Shown here in pieces: positions 1,509-41,307 of a DNA stretch of 41,452 bases (positions are counted from its first letter, which is position 1; every line of letters begins with the position of its first letter). Both the position numbers and the translations under genes were made by a program. Location of the stretch: contig OMIG01000235.1 of the NCBI GenBank assembly GCA_900299035.1, forward strand, positions 1 to 41,452. The letters are read 5' to 3'. Source of the DNA: Pseudomonadota bacterium (GTDB taxonomy: Bacteria > Bdellovibrionota_C > UBA2361 > OMII01). Below the pieces are notes generated by a model. The model saw only the letters and a list, made by a program, of their open reading frames with translations. It was not told where the DNA came from and did no database searches.

Positions 1509-4500
1509 CTACCCAGAAATGCTTGCGGGTTGCGGCTCAGCGCTGTCGTGAGCGCGGTAGCTCTGTGAGCTGCGGCGGCGTTCGCGCAAGACCGATGCCC
1601 AAGGAGTCTTGGCCCGCGCGAGCTCGCTTGGCGCGCCTTCGAAGATAACCTTGCCGCCTAGCTCTCCTGGCCCTGGCCCTAGCTCAACCACCCAGTCAGA
1701 CTGAGCGATCGTGTCAGCGTCGTGCTCTATCACAAACACCGAGTGGCCCTGGTCGACCAGGCCGTGGAGCCCCTTGAGGAGCAGCGACACGTCGAGCCGG
1801 TGGAGGCCTGTCGTCGGCTCGTCGAGGATGTAGAGCGTGTGTCCCTTGCGCGAGAGGTGCAGCTCTGAGACGAGCTTGAGACGCTGGCTCTCGCCGCCGG
1901 AGAGCGTCGACGAGGGCTGCCCGAGCGTTAGGTACCCAAGGCCCAGGTCACAGGCGAGCTTGCACACCTGGTGGATCTTCTTGTGGTTGACGAAGAACGT
2001 CCGGGCCTGCTCGAAGGTGAGCTGGAGAGTCTCGCTGATCGAGGTGTCCTTGAAGCGCACCGTGTCAGCCTCAGGCGTGAAGCGGCTGCCGAGGCAGCTC
2101 TCGCACATTACCTTCGCCTCTGCGAGGAAGCTCATCTCAAGCGTTATCTCTCCCTGGCCCTTGCAGGTCGGGCAGCGCCCCTTGCCGGTGTTGTGCGAGA
2201 AGAAGCTCGGGCCCCACCCGCGTGACTTGGCCTCAAGCATGCCGGCGAACACCTTGCGGATCTCATCCCAGATTCCTAGGTACGAGGCAGGAGTCGAGCG
2301 CGAGGTCTTCCCGATCGGCTGCTGGTCGACCACTAGGAAGCGCTCGATCTCAAGCGAGCTCTCGACGGTGCCGGTTGAGCCCTTGAAGATCTTCTTTGAG
2401 GCCCCGGACGAGGAGAGAGCCTCTGCGATTACGCCGTGCACGAGCGAGCTCTTGCCGGAGCCAGACACGCCGGCAACGGTGACGAGGCTCTTGAGGGGCA
2501 GCGTCACGGAGAGCTTGCGCAAGTTGTTGACGGAGGCGTTGAGCACGCGCAGGGATCCGCCAGATCGAAGCTCGCCTTCCCCTCGCAGCGCGAGCGGCAT
2601 CGCCAGCGCCCGGCCAGTCGCAGAGCGCGGCGCAGCGATTGCGCCCTCGACGGGCCCCTGGAACACGACCTCTCCGCCGTGCGTGCCAGCGCCGGGGCCG
2701 ACGTCGATCACGTGCTCAGCGGCGAGGATGTTGTCGATCTCGTGCTCTATCTGGATGACAGTGTTGCCGCGCTCCTTGAGCTGGGCGAGCTGAGAGAGGA
2801 GACGCTTGTTGTCGTCTGGGTGGAGCCCCGCGCTCGGCTCGTCGAAGACGTACGTGACGCCGCACAGCGGGGAGCCCATGGCGGTGCCGAGCCTGAGGCG
2901 CTGGAGCTCGCCGTTTGAGAGCGTGGCGCACTCTCGATTGAGGGCGATGTGGTCGAGCCCGAGGCTTGAGAGGGTCTTGAGCTTGCCGTCAAGCTCTCGC
3001 ACGATCGGCTCAACGATCTCCTTGGCGGAGGAGTCCTTGGAGAGCCGCACGAGGAGCGCGTGGAGCTTGGGTGCTGTGAGCATCGAGAGCTCGTGGATGT
3101 TCTGGTCGAAGAGCCGGATGTTTCGCCCGATCTCGTTGATGCGCGCGCCGCCGCACTCGGGGCAGGGCTTGTTCTTGAGGCTGCCGTAGCCGTCGCACTT
3201 CTTGCAGCGCCCGCGGCGGGAGTTAAACGAGAGGTCTTCTGGGTCCGGCTTGAAGAAGCCGCGCTGGCAGATGCGGCAGGTGCGCTCGGAGCTAAAGACG
3301 CGCTCGCTCGATCCGCTCAACACCACGACTGTGCCGCCGCCGATGGCGAGCGCTTGCTTGACTCCTTCGGCGATCAGGTCGGCAGGCATGCGGCCTGCGT
3401 TGAAGCTCGCCGTGATGAAGTCGATTGAGTGCACGGTGCTCTTCTTGAGCCCCTCCTCAACGAAGCGAGAGGGCGGAGCGACCGCGCCGTCGACCCGCAC
3501 CTCGCTCACCTCGGTGTCGATGGCGCGCTGGAAGACCGCCTTGTGGTTGCCCTTCTTCTGGTTGATGACGGGCGCAAGGAGCCGCACCGAGCCTGAGTAG
3601 TTCTGCTTGATGGAGGCGGCGATCTGTTCGGCTGAGAGCGGAGAGATCGACTCGGCTGGGTGGTCGGGGCAGAACTGCACGCCGACCTTGGCGTACAGGA
3701 GCCGCAGGAAGTTGTAGACCTCGCTCATCGTCGCGACAGTCGAGAGAGATGAGGGCTGGAAGGTGTGCTGGTAGACGCAGATCGTCGGCTGGATGTTGCG
3801 GATGTCGTCGATCGCCGGCTTCTTGAGCTCCTTGATGAACTGCCGCGCGTAGGGCGACAGGCAGTCGAGGTAGCGCCGCTGTCCCTCGGCGTACAGGATG
3901 TCTTTGGCGATAGTTGACTTGCCTGAGCCAGAGACGCCGGTGATGGTGATGAGCGAGTTGAGCGGCACTGAGAGCGAGACGTTCTTTAGGTTGTGCTCGC
4001 GGGCGCCGACGATCTCAATGGCCGTGGGCAGGGGCTTCGCTGCTCGGCCCTTGCGCTTCTCGGCTGCCTGCGGCTTTCGCCCCTTGGCTGGCCCGTACTG
4101 GGCGACGAACTCTGCCAGGTACCTTGCAGTGAGGCTGACGCTTGGGGTTGAGACAAGCTCCTGCGGCGTGCCCTGTGCCACGACCTCGCCGCCCTTGAAG
4201 CCGCCTTCGGGCCCGAGGTCAACGATCCAGTCCGCCGCAGCAACCAGCCGCAGGTTGTGCTCAACGCACAGGATCGAGTGGCCTGAGTCGCGCAGGAAAG
4301 CGAACAGCTCGATGAGACGCTCGACGTCGCGCACGTGCAGCCCGGTCGTGGGCTCGTCGAAGAGGAAGAGCGATCTTCCCCTGGCGCCCTCTACGATGTG
4401 CGGCACGAGTTTTAGCCGCTGCGCTTCGCCGCCCGAGAGCTCGCTCAGCGGGTGCCCGAGCGTGATGTGCCCGAGGCCAAGCTGCTTTAAGACCCTGCAC

Positions 4501-10401: not shown

Positions 10402-10833
10402 CTAACCGAGGACTCGCTTGGCTATTTCGCTTGCGCTCTTGCCGTCGTACTGGCCGGCGTACTTTTCCTTTAGGTGCTTCATCACGAGCGGCAGGGCGGC
10501 GCCGGGTGTTGAGTCCTTGAAGTCAGTGATGATCTTTTCTAGCTCCTGCGCCGACATCTGCTTCGGCAGGAACTCTTCGATGACAGCGATCTCGCTGGCG
10601 AGCTTCGCCTTCTGCTCGGCGCGGCCGGCTTGCTCTTCAAACTGAATCGACTCGTGGCGCTTCTTCACTTCGCGCTGGAGCACCGTTGAGCAGTCAGCAG
10701 GAGCGAGCTCGTTTACGCCCTTCTGCATCTCCTCGTACTGTATCTCTGAGAGCAGCGCCCGGATGGTGTCTAGGCGCAGGCGATCTTGGGCTTTCATGGC
10801 ACTCTTCAGCGCCTCTTTGAGTTGTGCTTTCAT
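10402..10833 (-). CDS. yqeY: GatB/YqeY domain-containing protein
   Basis: 'SAMKAQDRLRLDTIRALLSEIQYEE', 'EIAVIEEFLPKQMSAQELEKII' typical of the YqeY family. Confidence 0.9.
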   Translation of the reverse strand: MKAQLKEALKSAMKAQDRLRLDTIRALLSEIQYEEMQKGVNELAPADCSTVLQREVKKRHESIQFEEQAGRAEQKAKLASEIAVIEEFLPKQMSAQELEKIITDFKDSTPGAALPLVMKHLKEKYAGQYDGKSASEIAKRVLG

Positions 10834-16595: not shown

Positions 16596-17693
16596 ATGCC
16601 GACTCTTTTTGACCCGCTTACGCTCGGAGACCTTGAGCTTCCCAACCGAGTCATCATGGCCCCGCTCACGCGCATGCGCAGCAAGCAGCCTGGCAACATC
16701 CCAACACAGCTCAACGCCACCTACTACAGGCAGCGCGCCTCGGCCGGACTCATCATCTCCGAGGCCACGCAGATTTCGCAGCAGGGCCAAGGGTACCCGG
16801 CGACGCCTGGCATCCACACGCCAGAGCAGGTGGACGGCTGGCAGCTCGTGACCGACGCCGTGCACGAAGCCGGCGGACGGATCTTTCTACAGCTCTGGCA
16901 CGTCGGGCGCATTTCGCACCGCTCGCACCAGCCTGGCAACGAGCTGCCCGTTGCGCCCTCGGCGATTAAGCCCTCTGGCGGGACGTTCTCCGCAGACTGG
17001 AAGCAGGTTGCGTTTGAGACTCCTCGCGCCCTCGAAACCGCAGAGGTTAGCGACATCGTGAAGCAGTACCGCGTTGCGGCAGAGAACGCAGAGCAGGCCG
17101 GATTCGACGGCGTCGAAGTGCACGGCGCAAACGGCTACCTGATCGACCAGTTCCTGCAAGACGGATCGAACAAGCGAACTGACGAGTACGGCGGAAGCAT
17201 CGAGAACCGTGCACGGCTGCTGCTTGAGGCTGTCGACCAGGCAACTAGCCTCTGGGGCCCAGGCCGAGTAGGGGTGCGCCTGTCGCCGTACGGCACCTTC
17301 AACGACATGAGCGACTCTGACCCGGTCGGGCTCTTCACCTACGTGCTCTCAGAGCTTAGCCGTCGTGGGATAGCGTACGTGCACATCATCGAGCCGCGCG
17401 CCTCGCTGGCCGGCGGCCAAGACGGAACGAACGCGTCAGCGCCGCGCACGGCAGAGATCTTCCGCAAGGCGTTCTCAGGCGCGCTCATCTCTGCTGGCGG
17501 GTACGACCGCGCCGATGCGATGCGCGCAGTGGAGTCGGGCACAGCCGACGCAGTCGCGTTCGGAAGGCTCTTTATCGCAAACCCGGACCTCCCAGAGCGG
17601 CTGCGCAGCGGGGCAGACCTAAACGCCTACAACCGTGCGACCTTCTACGGCGGCGGGGAGAAGGGCTACACCGACTACCCGCGCGCCTCGTGA
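16596..17693 (+). CDS. nemA: Alkene reductase / N-ethylmaleimide reductase-like Old Yellow Enzyme
   Basis: 'LPNRVIMAPLTRMRS', 'LQLWHVGRISH', 'GFDGVEVHGANGYLIDQFLQDGSNKRTDEYGGSIENRARLLLE'. Confidence 0.93.
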   Translation: MPTLFDPLTLGDLELPNRVIMAPLTRMRSKQPGNIPTQLNATYYRQRASAGLIISEATQISQQGQGYPATPGIHTPEQVDGWQLVTDAVHEAGGRIFLQLWHVGRISHRSHQPGNELPVAPSAIKPSGGTFSADWKQVAFETPRALETAEVSDIVKQYRVAAENAEQAGFDGVEVHGANGYLIDQFLQDGSNKRTDEYGGSIENRARLLLEAVDQATSLWGPGRVGVRLSPYGTFNDMSDSDPVGLFTYVLSELSRRGIAYVHIIEPRASLAGGQDGTNASAPRTAEIFRKAFSGALISAGGYDRADAMRAVESGTADAVAFGRLFIANPDLPERLRSGADLNAYNRATFYGGGEKGYTDYPRAS

Positions 17694-17705: not shown

Positions 17706-17775
17706 TGCGCTAGCAGCATGCCTCGGGCCTGATGCGCTACGGCGCTACGTCAACGAACTCGACGTCGCCGGTTTC
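17706..17775. repeat. Left copy of ~70 bp direct repeat flanking the 1,560-aa gene
   Basis: TGCGCTAGCAGCATGCCTCGGGCCTGATGCGCTACGGCGCTACGTCAACGAACTCGACGTCGCC...; matches 22787-22870 with one substitution and two fewer 8-bp GGCGCTAC units. Confidence 0.95.
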
Positions 17776-18008
17776 TGCCTGACAGCCAAGGCTACCTTAC
17801 CCTGGTCGGTGACAACCCCGGCCGCGTTGCTAGCCTCATTCGGCACTTGAAGGCAGGTGTTCCTTTAAAGTAGGAATTCGCCAGACCCTACGAGTTTTCC
17901 GTAAAAGTAACCGCTGGCTTGTAACTGTCAGGCGCCTTTACAACCATAATAGTCCGAAACAGCACGGGATTGGCCCCCATCCCCATATCCCTGGCAGGAG
18001 AATGGACG

Positions 18009-21000
18009 ATGGTAATGGCTAAGCATGCGGCAACGACCCCTGGGGCGCGCGAACCGGCAGACCGACTGGCCGTTCGCGATAGTGCACCAACTCTCAAAGC
18101 TACCCCGAGTACGGAATCAGAAAAAGCTAACAGGCAAGACCATGCCCTTGGCGAGATTACAGCCCATTACGGCGTCCTCAAGAAAGACCACCCTGTTCAC
18201 AAATTTGTCGCCGCGCGACTCCACTTACTCATCGACGAGGTGCCTGTAACCGACCGGCCCCACGTGTACGTGCTTGGAAGGTCAGGTTATGGAGTAAACG
18301 CAGGAGCAACAAAAGATGGCCACATTTTCGTTACTCCCGAGCTACTCACCTTCGTAAAGAGCGTTGAGGAGCTCGACTTCATCCTGCTGCACGAGTTCAT
18401 TCATCTTGCACACAGCCACCACGCCGCGCAGGAGAAATTGGGAGACACCGTCTTGTCATCCCTCGGTATTCAGCGGGTACACGAATACGATGCGGACCTC
18501 AATGCGTTCATTCTGCTCGCCCAACCCAAGCGAGGGTCCTCGCCCCTCGGTGCGCTCACATGCCTAGAACGATTTCGGGACAAGGACCCGAAGGGATGGG
18601 ATCTTGCGCACGGAAATCTGAGCGACCGCATCATGAACCTCAAAATGTTCTCTCTCTTCCGCGATCTCTCCGGAGAAGGAGCTCTCTCTGGCGACTTCGG
18701 GTCTCTCACAAAAAAGCTTCGTTCCATGCCCAGCTTCATCGCCCGCGAGGTTGCGGAGCTCCCCCACGGCAGTCGAGTTGCCACCATTCTAAGACATCCT
18801 CCAGATGGCCACCGTTACGACACGTATCGCAAAGAGCTCATCGAAGCGATCCTCGATTCCGGCACGCCATCTCTTCGACGGGCGATTCCCTCCATCATCT
18901 CGCATCTTGAGGAGTATGGAGATTCTGATGGCGCGGTGCATAGGGCCCGTACGAGCGCCTACAAGGAGGCGCTCCAGCATGCCTACGGGCGGCTTTTCGC
19001 AACTGTTGCGGCATGCGCAACGGAACACAACCTAAGCGTTTTGGAGGGCCAGGTGCTGCTTGGCGTTGAATTGACGCTTCTTGATGAAACGCCGGAGCGC
19101 ATCGAAACCAATCTTACAGGGAGGGCCCGCTCTACAGCTCTTGCAGCCTTGGCCTCTCTAGCCACGTTTTCAGCCTCTGCCGAAGCGATCGAGCGAATGA
19201 GCCATATTTTGGCCCTCGTTGAGGACGGAGCGCCATTTTCCTGTACGGAGCGCCTCTTTTACGATGTCGTTCGTCCGGCGCTAGGGGAGAACTGTGCTTT
19301 CGATCGAGACAGCGACGAGACAGTTGATATCAAGCTCTATTTCTCATCAGTGCAAAAGCTAACTAAGGCCCTTAGCGCGCTAAGCCACAGGCACGACAGG
19401 TCGGCAGAGCGCGTGCAGAATGAATTTGATGGAATGGCGGTCTTCACGCTCGCGGCCCATCTGGCAGACATCCGTAGCGATCAGCTCTCAGGCCTAAACT
19501 CGGAAATCGCCTCGCTTCATCCGTCCCTTAAATCGGACAAGCGCGCGCTCTCGCAGGCTCTTAGCTCTGTGATGCAACAAGAGCACACAAGCGAGACGAC
19601 GGCTGCCGTCACCCAATTTGCCAAAGAGGAGCTTGAGGTGCTTTCGATAGCCGAGACACAGGCGGCTCTTATTGAAATCTTCACCCAGGTAGAGCGCTTT
19701 ATATTGGAAGATCGCTCCCCGAATTCTCTCGACCGTATTGAAGCTCTTTTTAAGAGGGCTTTCCGAGTCTCGCTTAACCTCCCGACCTCTATATCTTGCG
19801 ATGATGTAGTGGGCGATGAGTCCAAGAACCTGACCTCATCGTACACCCCCTACTCCATTTCAGTCCATCTGATGGAGGTCGCTCTAGCGCGCGCATTCCC
19901 TGATCTGCCGACCGAGGGACGGCGAGACCACATTGCTCACCTGAATTTTCAAGAGAGCGCTCGCCTTAAGAAGCTTGAGGTCGGCTTCCTCCATACGCTG
20001 TGCTCGAGCCATGGAGAGCGCCAGGATGCGATTGACCGAACCGAGTATATTGTCCAAGTCCACAGCCAATCCTTCGAAGAGATCGCAGCCCTCGTCGATG
20101 AGATTCACAGCGAAGCGCCGGAGGCATTCATACGGGAGGAATCTCTCGCTCCTCGGTCCTTTAAGCCGGAACCCGACATCGCGCTGCATGAGTATGCAGG
20201 CAACGCGCTTCTCTCGGAGCTCAAAAACTCTCAGTCCCTCTCGGAAAAAGGAAAGCTCGAGCGCATCTACAAATTCATTACCGTGTGCCATGTCTGTGAA
20301 ACTGAGGAGCAGCGTGACGCAGGCGTATTTCGAGAAATCCTTGCTATCGGTGAGGCATCCCTTCGAGCCGTCTATCAAGACGACAGGAATTCGCCTGAGT
20401 TTATTCGGCACGCCATCGCCGTAAGCTTTTTCGTGAGCGATGGCGTTCTTAGTCGCTCAATCCAAAGAGAGCTTCTTTTGAGGCTCATTGACACAGCTGG
20501 CTCTGCCACTACAGCCGAGGAGATTTTTTCGAAGCTAAAAAGACAACAGGGGCACCTGAACCTAGAAACTATCGAGAAGCTCGACGAGGGGGCAAGCCAG
20601 GCTTCGGACATCCGATCGATCGGCCGACGGTGCCGGGAGCATCTCCTTGCGAATGATGCTGCAGCGTCGCAAGCGGGCCGGCTTGTCCTTGGGGATATGA
20701 TCGCAACGGGAACGAAGCGGTTTGACTTTCACGAGCTTCTCTCGGTTGGGCTTGACACGTCTGAAAATGACAGCCGTCTCAGAGACGAAATTGCCAAGCG
20801 TTGGTGGGATAGCGCCTCGGATGTCGTGACGAGGGACTTGCAATGGAACGACCTGCCGGAACCGAACGAGATTCCGGAGCGCCTAGATGATGCCAAGGCA
20901 TGGATGTCCACGTTGAACGCCACGACACCAAGGAACCTCGCCAAGGAGTTTCGTCCCGCGGAGCTGGGCTCTCTCGATCCCGCTCATTTTACCGCCAACG

Positions 21001-22688
21001 CAATTCGGCAAAATATGTACAGCCTGGGAATCGCCGAGCGACTGGTCGTCTTGCGGAAGCTCACAAGCGATCCCACGAAAGGGATTTTGATATCGCCGGA
21101 GAGAAGGGAGAAGGTCGCGCAAACCCTGCTGGGCAAGATGGTATCAAACGCTGGTGACGATCCGTTATCGGAGCTCTCCTCGATGGCTTTTCGGGCTCTC
21201 TTTCGCTCGGTTCATGGAGATGACCTTGCGCTCGCCGTCACTCCCATGCTCTTGGACCGGTTTTTGCGGGCTCCGTCATCCCCGTCCACATGGAGGCACT
21301 GTGCAGCGGAGCGAGCATCCACATTTCTGGCCGATTGCCGGTGGGGCAAAGCCTCTTCACAGTCCTCGAGGCGCACTATTAGCGCTTTGCACTCTCGACT
21401 ACTAAACTGCGTCACGAATCACTTCGAATGGGCCCTGAGCGGGAGTAATCCTCGAACGCAGCGCTCAAGCATTCCTGCCCTTGAGGGGCTAATAGAGCTT
21501 TGTGCAATCGAGGTGTCTCCAAAGGCAAGCGTATCCCGTACGGATGCGATATCGTTCATTCTCGACTTTTCGAGAAATCTACAAACGCCAGGCACTCGAG
21601 CGCTTCAGCTCCTCGGTGGGATCGTTGAGCTTCCAAAGGAGATTGAGAGGGAATTTCTACAGGTGTATGACGCCCAAAAGGGGCAATCGAAATCAAGCGC
21701 TCTTGCGACGATCGATCGAGCGCTGCCGGAGTTCGCATCACGAGTGGCCTCGCTGCATCGAATCGGCGGTGGGGCGCTCTACTCGGTATTCCTTGCGGAG
21801 CTTTCGAGTGGAGGAAAGGAGGTAGTTCGAGTCGTTAACCCAAACCCCGAATACCACACGCAGCGAATCGTGCAGAGCATGAAGGCTGCCCAAAAGCAGC
21901 TTGCGCGGGAGGATTCACGATTCGAGATCGGTGAGCAGGTCATTAATCTTGTGGACGAGTGGATCACCGCCGAGCTTCAGGACCAAACCTACGAAGCTGA
22001 TGACAAGGCGTTTCGAGCGCGTTGGAATCATTGGACACCGTCTCGCAAGTGCCCCCTCTCGATATACGTGCCGGAAAACTATCCATCCGGAACGCTCTTA
22101 GTGAGACGAGAAGAGTTTATTCCCGGGAAGAACTTTACGGAGCTAAGCTCGCTCGCGGAGGCAGACGGACGACTTGCGAAACAGGTTGTTGCACTAGCTG
22201 CGCAACACTATGTGGAGCAGCTTACCGGGTCGGCCATGGAGAATATCTGGGGTTCAGAGCTTCTCGTCCACTCAGACATCTCCCCGGGAAACCTGCGAAT
22301 TATGGACGGCGGCAAGGTCGCCATCCTTGATCGGTCAATGTTTCTCAAATTCTCGGTTAAAGACCGGAAGCTGCTCAAGGCGGTTATGGACGCAAAGACT
22401 CCGCACCAGCGCGCTTCAGCCGTTGTGTCGGGGTTAGCGGAGCTCCAAGACGACGAGGTTCCAAAGAGCGAGGTAAGGGCAATCATTGAGCGAGTGAATG
22501 CATCGCTCCAGGGCGAGTCCTCGCTTGAAGGCACGATGCTTAAGGGGCTCATCGCTGCTCAGCGGGAGGGATTAAAAGTGCCGCTGCGCTTTCAGTTGCT
22601 GGTAAAGAACCTGAATTCTTTGAGGGTCATGGCTGAAAAGGTTGGATTCTCAAGCCTCGCAGAGGCCCTCGATTTTAAGTGGTCGTAG
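18009..22688 (+). CDS. ~1,560-aa multidomain protein: N-terminal M48-like zinc metallopeptidase, long mostly uncharacterised middle region, C-terminal diverged ABC1/UbiB-like kinase domain
   Basis: 'GHIFVTPELLTFVKSVEELDFILLHEFIHLAHSHH...HEYDADLNAFILL' (HExxH + downstream ExxxD); C-term 'IGGGALYSVFLAELSSGGKEVVRVVNPNPE' and 'LVHSDISPGNLRIMDGGKVAILDRSMF' (cf. HxDxxPGN...LD). ATG at 18009 has AGGAG 8 nt upstream; the ORF start 17970 is TTG. Confidence 0.85.
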   Translation: MVMAKHAATTPGAREPADRLAVRDSAPTLKATPSTESEKANRQDHALGEITAHYGVLKKDHPVHKFVAARLHLLIDEVPVTDRPHVYVLGRSGYGVNAGATKDGHIFVTPELLTFVKSVEELDFILLHEFIHLAHSHHAAQEKLGDTVLSSLGIQRVHEYDADLNAFILLAQPKRGSSPLGALTCLERFRDKDPKGWDLAHGNLSDRIMNLKMFSLFRDLSGEGALSGDFGSLTKKLRSMPSFIAREVAELPHGSRVATILRHPPDGHRYDTYRKELIEAILDSGTPSLRRAIPSIISHLEEYGDSDGAVHRARTSAYKEALQHAYGRLFATVAACATEHNLSVLEGQVLLGVELTLLDETPERIETNLTGRARSTALAALASLATFSASAEAIERMSHILALVEDGAPFSCTERLFYDVVRPALGENCAFDRDSDETVDIKLYFSSVQKLTKALSALSHRHDRSAERVQNEFDGMAVFTLAAHLADIRSDQLSGLNSEIASLHPSLKSDKRALSQALSSVMQQEHTSETTAAVTQFAKEELEVLSIAETQAALIEIFTQVERFILEDRSPNSLDRIEALFKRAFRVSLNLPTSISCDDVVGDESKNLTSSYTPYSISVHLMEVALARAFPDLPTEGRRDHIAHLNFQESARLKKLEVGFLHTLCSSHGERQDAIDRTEYIVQVHSQSFEEIAALVDEIHSEAPEAFIREESLAPRSFKPEPDIALHEYAGNALLSELKNSQSLSEKGKLERIYKFITVCHVCETEEQRDAGVFREILAIGEASLRAVYQDDRNSPEFIRHAIAVSFFVSDGVLSRSIQRELLLRLIDTAGSATTAEEIFSKLKRQQGHLNLETIEKLDEGASQASDIRSIGRRCREHLLANDAAASQAGRLVLGDMIATGTKRFDFHELLSVGLDTSENDSRLRDEIAKRWWDSASDVVTRDLQWNDLPEPNEIPERLDDAKAWMSTLNATTPRNLAKEFRPAELGSLDPAHFTANAIRQNMYSLGIAERLVVLRKLTSDPTKGILISPERREKVAQTLLGKMVSNAGDDPLSELSSMAFRALFRSVHGDDLALAVTPMLLDRFLRAPSSPSTWRHCAAERASTFLADCRWGKASSQSSRRTISALHSRLLNCVTNHFEWALSGSNPRTQRSSIPALEGLIELCAIEVSPKASVSRTDAISFILDFSRNLQTPGTRALQLLGGIVELPKEIEREFLQVYDAQKGQSKSSALATIDRALPEFASRVASLHRIGGGALYSVFLAELSSGGKEVVRVVNPNPEYHTQRIVQSMKAAQKQLAREDSRFEIGEQVINLVDEWITAELQDQTYEADDKAFRARWNHWTPSRKCPLSIYVPENYPSGTLLVRREEFIPGKNFTELSSLAEADGRLAKQVVALAAQHYVEQLTGSAMENIWGSELLVHSDISPGNLRIMDGGKVAILDRSMFLKFSVKDRKLLKAVMDAKTPHQRASAVVSGLAELQDDEVPKSEVRAIIERVNASLQGESSLEGTMLKGLIAAQREGLKVPLRFQLLVKNLNSLRVMAEKVGFSSLAEALDFKWS

Positions 22689-22786
22689 GCAGCTACTATT
22701 AGAGCACGTTTCCACGCCGGCGCTGTCACAAGGGGTGCCTACCTGTGAGGGAAGCGCTGCCCATATTCAGGGCCTCGTGCTGCGTT

Positions 22787-22870
22787 TGCGCTAGCAGCAT
22801 GCCTTGGGCCTGATGCGCTACGGCGCTACGGCGCTACGGCGCTACGTCAACGAACTCGACGTCGCCCGTT
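22787..22870. repeat. Right copy of the flanking direct repeat, overlapping the 3' end of the phosphodiesterase gene
   Basis: TGCGCTAGCAGCATGCCTTGGGCCTGATGCGCTAC(GGCGCTAC)x3 GTCAACGAACTCGACGTCGCC; see 17706-17775. Confidence 0.95.
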
Positions 22871-23325
22871 TCGGGCGCAAGAAACGCAACGGTGTGCCTC
22901 TCCGCTGCGTAGAGCGCGCCTGGGTTGATGACGCGAGTCTTGCCAACGATCTCGTCTCGCTGCTCGTGAGTGTGGCCGTGGAGCACGTAGTCGTGCTGCT
23001 GTGAATCGATAGCCTCGTTCAGCACGCGGATGCTCGTGCCGTGGTAGGCAAAGAAGCTCTTGCCTGCGTGCGAGAAGACGAGCGTGTCTTCTATCTCTGG
23101 GAAGCCTAGCTCCAGGCACATCTTTTTGAGCCCTGAGCGCTCGAAGTCGTTGTTGCCGAACACAAAGCGCATCGGGAGGCCAGCGAAGCGCTCAACGGTT
23201 GGGGGCGAGACGATGTCACCGCAGTGGATGACGATGGACGGCGATCGCTTGCGCAGGATCTCTATGCCGCGCACGACGAGGGGGGTGTTCTCGTGGGTGT
23301 CTGAGATGATGCCGACCAGGGTCAT
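22834..23325 (-). CDS. yfcE: YfcE/MJ0936-family metallophosphoesterase (phosphodiesterase)
   Basis: 'GIISDTHENT', 'VIHCGDIVS', 'FVFGNNDF', 'YVLHGHTHEQRDEIVGKTRVINPGAL'. Confidence 0.93.
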   Translation of the reverse strand: MTLVGIISDTHENTPLVVRGIEILRKRSPSIVIHCGDIVSPPTVERFAGLPMRFVFGNNDFERSGLKKMCLELGFPEIEDTLVFSHAGKSFFAYHGTSIRVLNEAIDSQQHDYVLHGHTHEQRDEIVGKTRVINPGALYAAERHTVAFLAPETGDVEFVDVAP

Positions 23326-41231: not shown

Positions 41232-41233
41232 CG

Positions 41234-41302
41234 AAAAAAAGGGGACAGACACATTTATCCGCAGCTTCGCTGCATGGATAAATGTGTCTGTCCCTTTTTT
41301 TT
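41234..41302. terminator. Long near-perfect stem-loop downstream of fliG (terminator; REP-like GGGGACAGACACATTTATCC arms)
   Basis: A7-GGGGACAGACACATTTATCC / GCAGCTTCGCTGC / GGATAAATGTGTCTGTCCC-T8. Confidence 0.88.
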
Positions 41303-41307
41303 CTAGC

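Follow-up and report, generated by a model that had tools for sequence, protein, structure and literature searches.

The locus raises the question of how a single large gene came to lie between a nemA-like gene and a convergent yfcE-like gene in a freshwater bacterium, enclosed by two copies of a direct repeat that includes the end of yfcE. The window, meaning the whole stretch of 41,452 nucleotides that was analyzed, is contig C235 of a fragmented assembly (3.02 Mb, 276 contigs, 94.4% completeness, 3.3% contamination).

Organization of the locus and the direct repeat

The nemA-like flavin oxidoreductase gene (16596–17693, + strand) forms the left flank of the ancestral junction, and the intact target gene, the yfcE-like phosphodiesterase (22834–23325, − strand), lies on the right. 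The insert between them is made up of a noncoding left arm (17776–18008, + strand) with a ribosome-binding-like GGCAGGAG just 5′ of the ATG at 18009; a full-length open reading frame for 1559 amino acids (18009–22688, + strand), designated the M48-ABC1 gene from Pfam matches, alignment and predicted fold; and a right arm that is noncoding by its sequence (22689–22786). As the initial annotation had stated, the insert holds no transposase, and the 331 bp outside the gene contain no integrase or integrase remnant. Relatives of the left arm were found neither in this genome nor in the sister loci. A frame beside the left repeat (ending in DSQGYLTLVGDNPGRVASLIRHLKAGVPLK and a stop) was considered as a truncated donor gene and rejected, having no credible homolog (best E 0.13). 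At the contig ends, the window carries a palindromic REP-like element on the right (41233–41303; GGGGACAGACACATTTATCC) and, on the left (28–66), a 39-bp repeat that recurs at many contig ends, both in this genome and in G007; these elements probably caused the contig breaks there.

The left copy of the direct repeat (17706–17775, 70 bp) sits just 3′ of nemA, and the right copy (22787–22872, 86 bp) holds the end of the true yfcE. Each consists of the last 12 yfcE codons and the stop codon (39 bp) followed by downstream DNA (31 bp on the left, 47 bp on the right). Two substitutions separate the copies, a C/T within the noncoding stretch and a G/C within the yfcE codons; they also differ in the length of a tandem array of the 8-bp unit GCGCTACG, with two units on the left and four on the right, the two extra units adding 16 bp. 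The initial annotation had placed the repeat at these positions, the right end now being set at 22872, and had counted one substitution and one additional unit, which is too few on both counts. It had also read the right copy as the genuine yfcE C-terminus, which holds, the minus-strand frame at 22834–23325 ending in ETGDVEFVDVAP and a stop. Of the orphan codons that it had described in the left copy, the 12 codons and stop (ETGDVEFVDVAP and stop, 17737–17775, − strand, 39 bp) are indeed there, and the preceding 'A' falls outside the identity.

Exact repeats in the window reach 36 bp at most, compared with no more than 18 bp in 30 order-3 Markov simulations, so the length of the repeat is far beyond chance. 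A whole-genome search found two copies and no third, which rules out a dispersed repeat family, an alternative that the initial annotation had raised against its own reading. The copy number also bears on the idea that assembly joined a separate molecule or a strain variant carrying the gene into the nemA–yfcE locus via the shared repeat. The contig count, completeness and contamination given above would leave room for such an error, as would the fact that the same-genus relatives are MAGs, but two base differences and 16 bp of extra length set the copies apart, enough for an assembler to separate them, a third copy is absent from the assembly, and homologs of the gene are present in the same genus; we regard such an artefact as very improbable. 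The slippage-prone, variable GCGCTACG array would suit a history in which the 70-bp site was tandemly duplicated first and the gene inserted later between the two copies. Such an insertion must have hit the copy junction exactly, as neither copy is cut, and it invokes two events where one would do, which makes this history unlikely. A transposon or insertion sequence was rejected because the insert lacks a transposase and the repeat measures 70 bp, against target duplications of about 2–14 bp. An integron cassette was likewise rejected, the attC motifs RYYYAAC/GTTRRRY being absent by eye and folding being no better than that of shuffled sequences (z 0.06, −0.26 and −1.35).

Empty sites in relatives and age of the duplication

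Comparison of syntenic loci showed that the M48-ABC1 gene is absent between cox or nemA and yfcE in every same-genus genome with a readable junction (8/8). The gene order is cox–nemA–yfcE in G002, G003 and G011, and cox–yfcE in the five relatives in which nemA is missing at the junction (G001, G004, G006, G009 and G010). The junction spans ~60–630 bp in relatives versus 5140 bp in this genome; it holds ~340 bp of unrelated DNA between nemA and yfcE in G002, and in G003 and G011 (L039 and L040) a frame of ~150 codons that appears PEBP-family-like by eye. The differing spacer content, together with the absence of nemA there in five relatives, marks the nemA–yfcE junction as a variable spot. No integrase element was found at yfcE in any relative examined. 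On the opposite side of yfcE, G002 carries ~3.5 kb of extra DNA between a TonB-like gene and yfcE (L038:5328–8815).

The 39-bp yfcE end is 97% identical between the two copies, compared with 51–71% between species; between G002 and this genome, identity is ~67% at the yfcE 3′ end and 79% for the complete gene. The identity between copies, set against ~67% to the sister genome, indicates that the duplication is recent and later than the split from G002. The noncoding half of the repeat, that is, the 31–47 bp downstream of yfcE, is not recognizable in any of these relatives, which, with the identity of the copies, shows both copies to be this species' own sequence. At the coding difference it is the left copy, not the right, that carries the base found in most relatives, a single base being too little to tell which copy is older.

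Distribution of the gene family

A scan of genome contigs for the M48-ABC1 gene returned same-genus loci only. Homologs outside this genome occur only in G002 (59% identity) and in G006 (two copies, 45% and 43%), and none was found in 380 further genomes, in plasmid or phage records, or in viral contigs; carriage of the gene by a phage or plasmid was rejected on the latter results. The M48-ABC1 fusion family, which is undescribed, is confined to one genus as far as searched. A member of the genus or a close relative is the probable source of the gene, no homolog having been found elsewhere.

All three homologs lie at loci other than nemA–yfcE, the G002 copy adjoining accC; the accC region of this genome has no M48-ABC1 gene. 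Around the homologs (L047, L048 and L049) we found neither flanking repeats of at least 20 bp nor an integrase-bearing element, which rules out the presence of the 5.1-kb unit with its repeats at these other loci. Homologs at other loci without repeats indicate that the family is gained and lost among members of the genus, and that the repeat belongs to this one insertion rather than to the family. In this genome, accC–trxB is flanked by palindromic repeats of 177 bp (L106:7466–7642 and 10626–10802, 89% identity), a dispersed intergenic family with a further copy in L132.

One G006 homolog has as neighbors an AAA_5 ATPase, a protein that looks vWA-like by eye and contains a HELGH motif, and two LRR proteins (L049:103–6088); DNA searches of the other genomes covered gave no match to these neighbors. 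It loosely recalls MoxR–vWA conflict systems (PMC7159879), and we treat it as a lead only, since the other copies of the gene are without such neighbors.

Codon usage and selection

To the initial annotation the enclosed gene had looked less GC-biased at third codon positions than its neighbors, and computed values bear this out: its GC3 is 0.610, versus 0.681–0.864 in the other 29 genes of the window, and none of the 30 genes has a lower codon log-likelihood. The homologs in G002 and G006 have GC3 values of 0.62–0.70, so the codon anomaly may in part reflect the family rather than a foreign origin; relatives with lower GC, G006 among them, would likewise make suitable donors. Over the C-terminal 430 codons, comparison with G002 gave a dN of 0.20 against a near-saturated dS (~4.2, NG86), which indicates that the gene is under purifying selection.

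Predicted protein

The N-terminal M48 metallopeptidase domain (residues ~45–260) matches the Pfam Peptidase M48 model at 30.6 bits (cut-off 20.3). It has HEFIH at 128–132 and a glutamate at 159; H128, E129, H132 and E159 are invariant in four homologs, so that the HExxH motif and downstream glutamate of M48 peptidases are both present. Its predicted fold matches those of BepA and the Geobacter M48 peptidase Q74D82, with which it shares the HExxH...E zinc site. The middle region is long, all-helical and weakly conserved (23–55% identity), and it is followed by a conserved (66–78% identity) ABC1/UbiB-like domain (~1190–1460) that matches the ABC1 Pfam model at 30.4 bits (cut-off 22.9) and scores 24.9 bits with the UbiB equivalog, far below its cut-off of 487.6. 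Like ABC1/UbiB atypical kinases it keeps DxxPGN and the second Asp, and with them the Asp, Asn and Asp of the active site, but KxGQ is replaced by an invariant RALQ, and arginine stands at the usual catalytic lysine position (UbiB alignment by eye). This motif pattern makes nucleotide binding plausible and kinase activity uncertain. Residues 360–1559 gave no significant fold match, the prediction there being of low confidence (pLDDT 54).

The gene probably encodes a soluble zinc peptidase that is linked by a helical scaffold to a nucleotide-binding domain of divergent UbiB-like type. Unlike known M48 and ABC1/UbiB proteins, it joins both domains, here through ~900 mostly helical residues. An accessory or conflict role would be a guess; searches with PADLOC models for anti-phage defense gave no good match, only partial ones (E 0.008 and 0.06).

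Origin of the insertion

The initial annotation had suggested that the gene arrived as a unit at the 3′ end of yfcE, and this part stands: the gain of the 5.1-kb unit at that site in this lineage is well supported by the empty sites in relatives, the homologs at other loci, a repeat that is not a dispersed family, and the lowest GC3 and codon fit in the window. A pattern in which all relatives carry the gene at this locus with both repeats and normal codon usage, which the initial annotation had named as refuting its reading, was not observed.

Very probably, a ~5.0-kb segment with one intact gene inserted between nemA and the convergent yfcE after the split from G002, and the last 39 bp of yfcE and ~31 bp downstream became duplicated, such that yfcE kept its own end at the right and the orphan end stayed beside nemA. 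The insert, the duplication, the empty sites and the lack of further copies are direct observations; beyond them, we propose that the duplication would have arisen in place through illegitimate insertion, whether by break repair or replication-associated events, by template switching, or by one-sided homology, in which case same-species DNA would have been joined to the incoming gene; no integrase would have acted on a pre-existing att site. As a whole, this explanation has in our view about an even chance of being correct. Ku was not found in the genome, so classical end joining would not be available, and we know of no simple established illegitimate route to a 70-bp target duplication.

One of the mechanisms put forward in the initial annotation, an integrative element, is less well supported. 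In its present form it would be a decayed or non-autonomous, CIME-like element with the repeats as its attL and attR; a tyrosine integrase, since lost or acting from elsewhere, would have generated them at the yfcE 3′ end. Integrative elements often use the 3′ ends of housekeeping genes and are typically flanked by repeats of 8–60 bp, with one repeat rebuilding the end of the target gene (PMC5704250), as one copy does here. A 3′-end duplication that leaves the gene intact is the classic footprint of tyrosine-integrase elements (PMC5704250), a point against illegitimate insertion. Classical CIMEs are 1.2–13 kb long and carry cargo and no recombination genes (PMC7563491). The unit described here likewise combines a few kilobases of cargo with direct repeats, one keeping a housekeeping-gene 3′ end, and has no recombination or transfer genes (PMC5704250, PMC7563491). 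Two tyrosine recombinases above the Pfam cut-off are encoded elsewhere in the genome (C178 and C31), and the repeat contains a small imperfect palindrome (ACGTC-gagttcgtt-GACGT).

Against an integrative element stand the lack of an integrase or its remnant in the insert, the absence of any related integrase-bearing element at yfcE in the relatives examined, homologs without flanking repeats, and a repeat core that has no match in viral contigs. The repeat is also, at 70–86 bp, unlike those of CIMEs in reaching non-conserved intergenic DNA. It is this last feature that weighs most against an old att site brought along by the element: an incoming att site should resemble the end of the gene and not the species-specific DNA beyond it, and identity running 31–47 bp into such DNA fits duplicated resident sequence better. 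Illegitimate insertion with target duplication seems to us slightly more likely than site-specific integration, which we see as possible though doubtful.

Illegitimate insertion with target duplication resembles homology-facilitated insertion (HFIR; PMC3240628), which involves insertion of foreign DNA without a recombinase gene, and in which homology on one side could leave a second copy of a resident stretch. At this locus the donor molecule and the junction microhomology of such an event are hypothetical. Once in place, the gene could plausibly be lost by recombination between the repeats.

With its nearly intact target duplication and empty sites in relatives, the locus is a clean example of gene gain. 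As it stands, it represents an ordinary lineage-specific acquisition and ordinary genome dynamics; should the unit prove able to move with no recombinase of its own, it would make a useful minimal case. That a genus-restricted, single-gene M48-ABC1 family travels between chromosomal sites as an independent unit in this way, duplicates the 3′ part of a neighboring gene and perhaps serves defense or conflict, seems to us a long shot.

A survey of 522 kb of the assembly (46 stretches, including the window) revealed one other comparable two-copy spaced repeat, on contig C85, which suggests that such structures are uncommon and not unique. This contig had no syntenic counterpart in relatives. Its 97-bp repeat (L125:1586–1682 and 4086–4182, 92% identity) lies around a 307-aa frame and an SPFH-like gene, and extends into the 3′ end of that frame.
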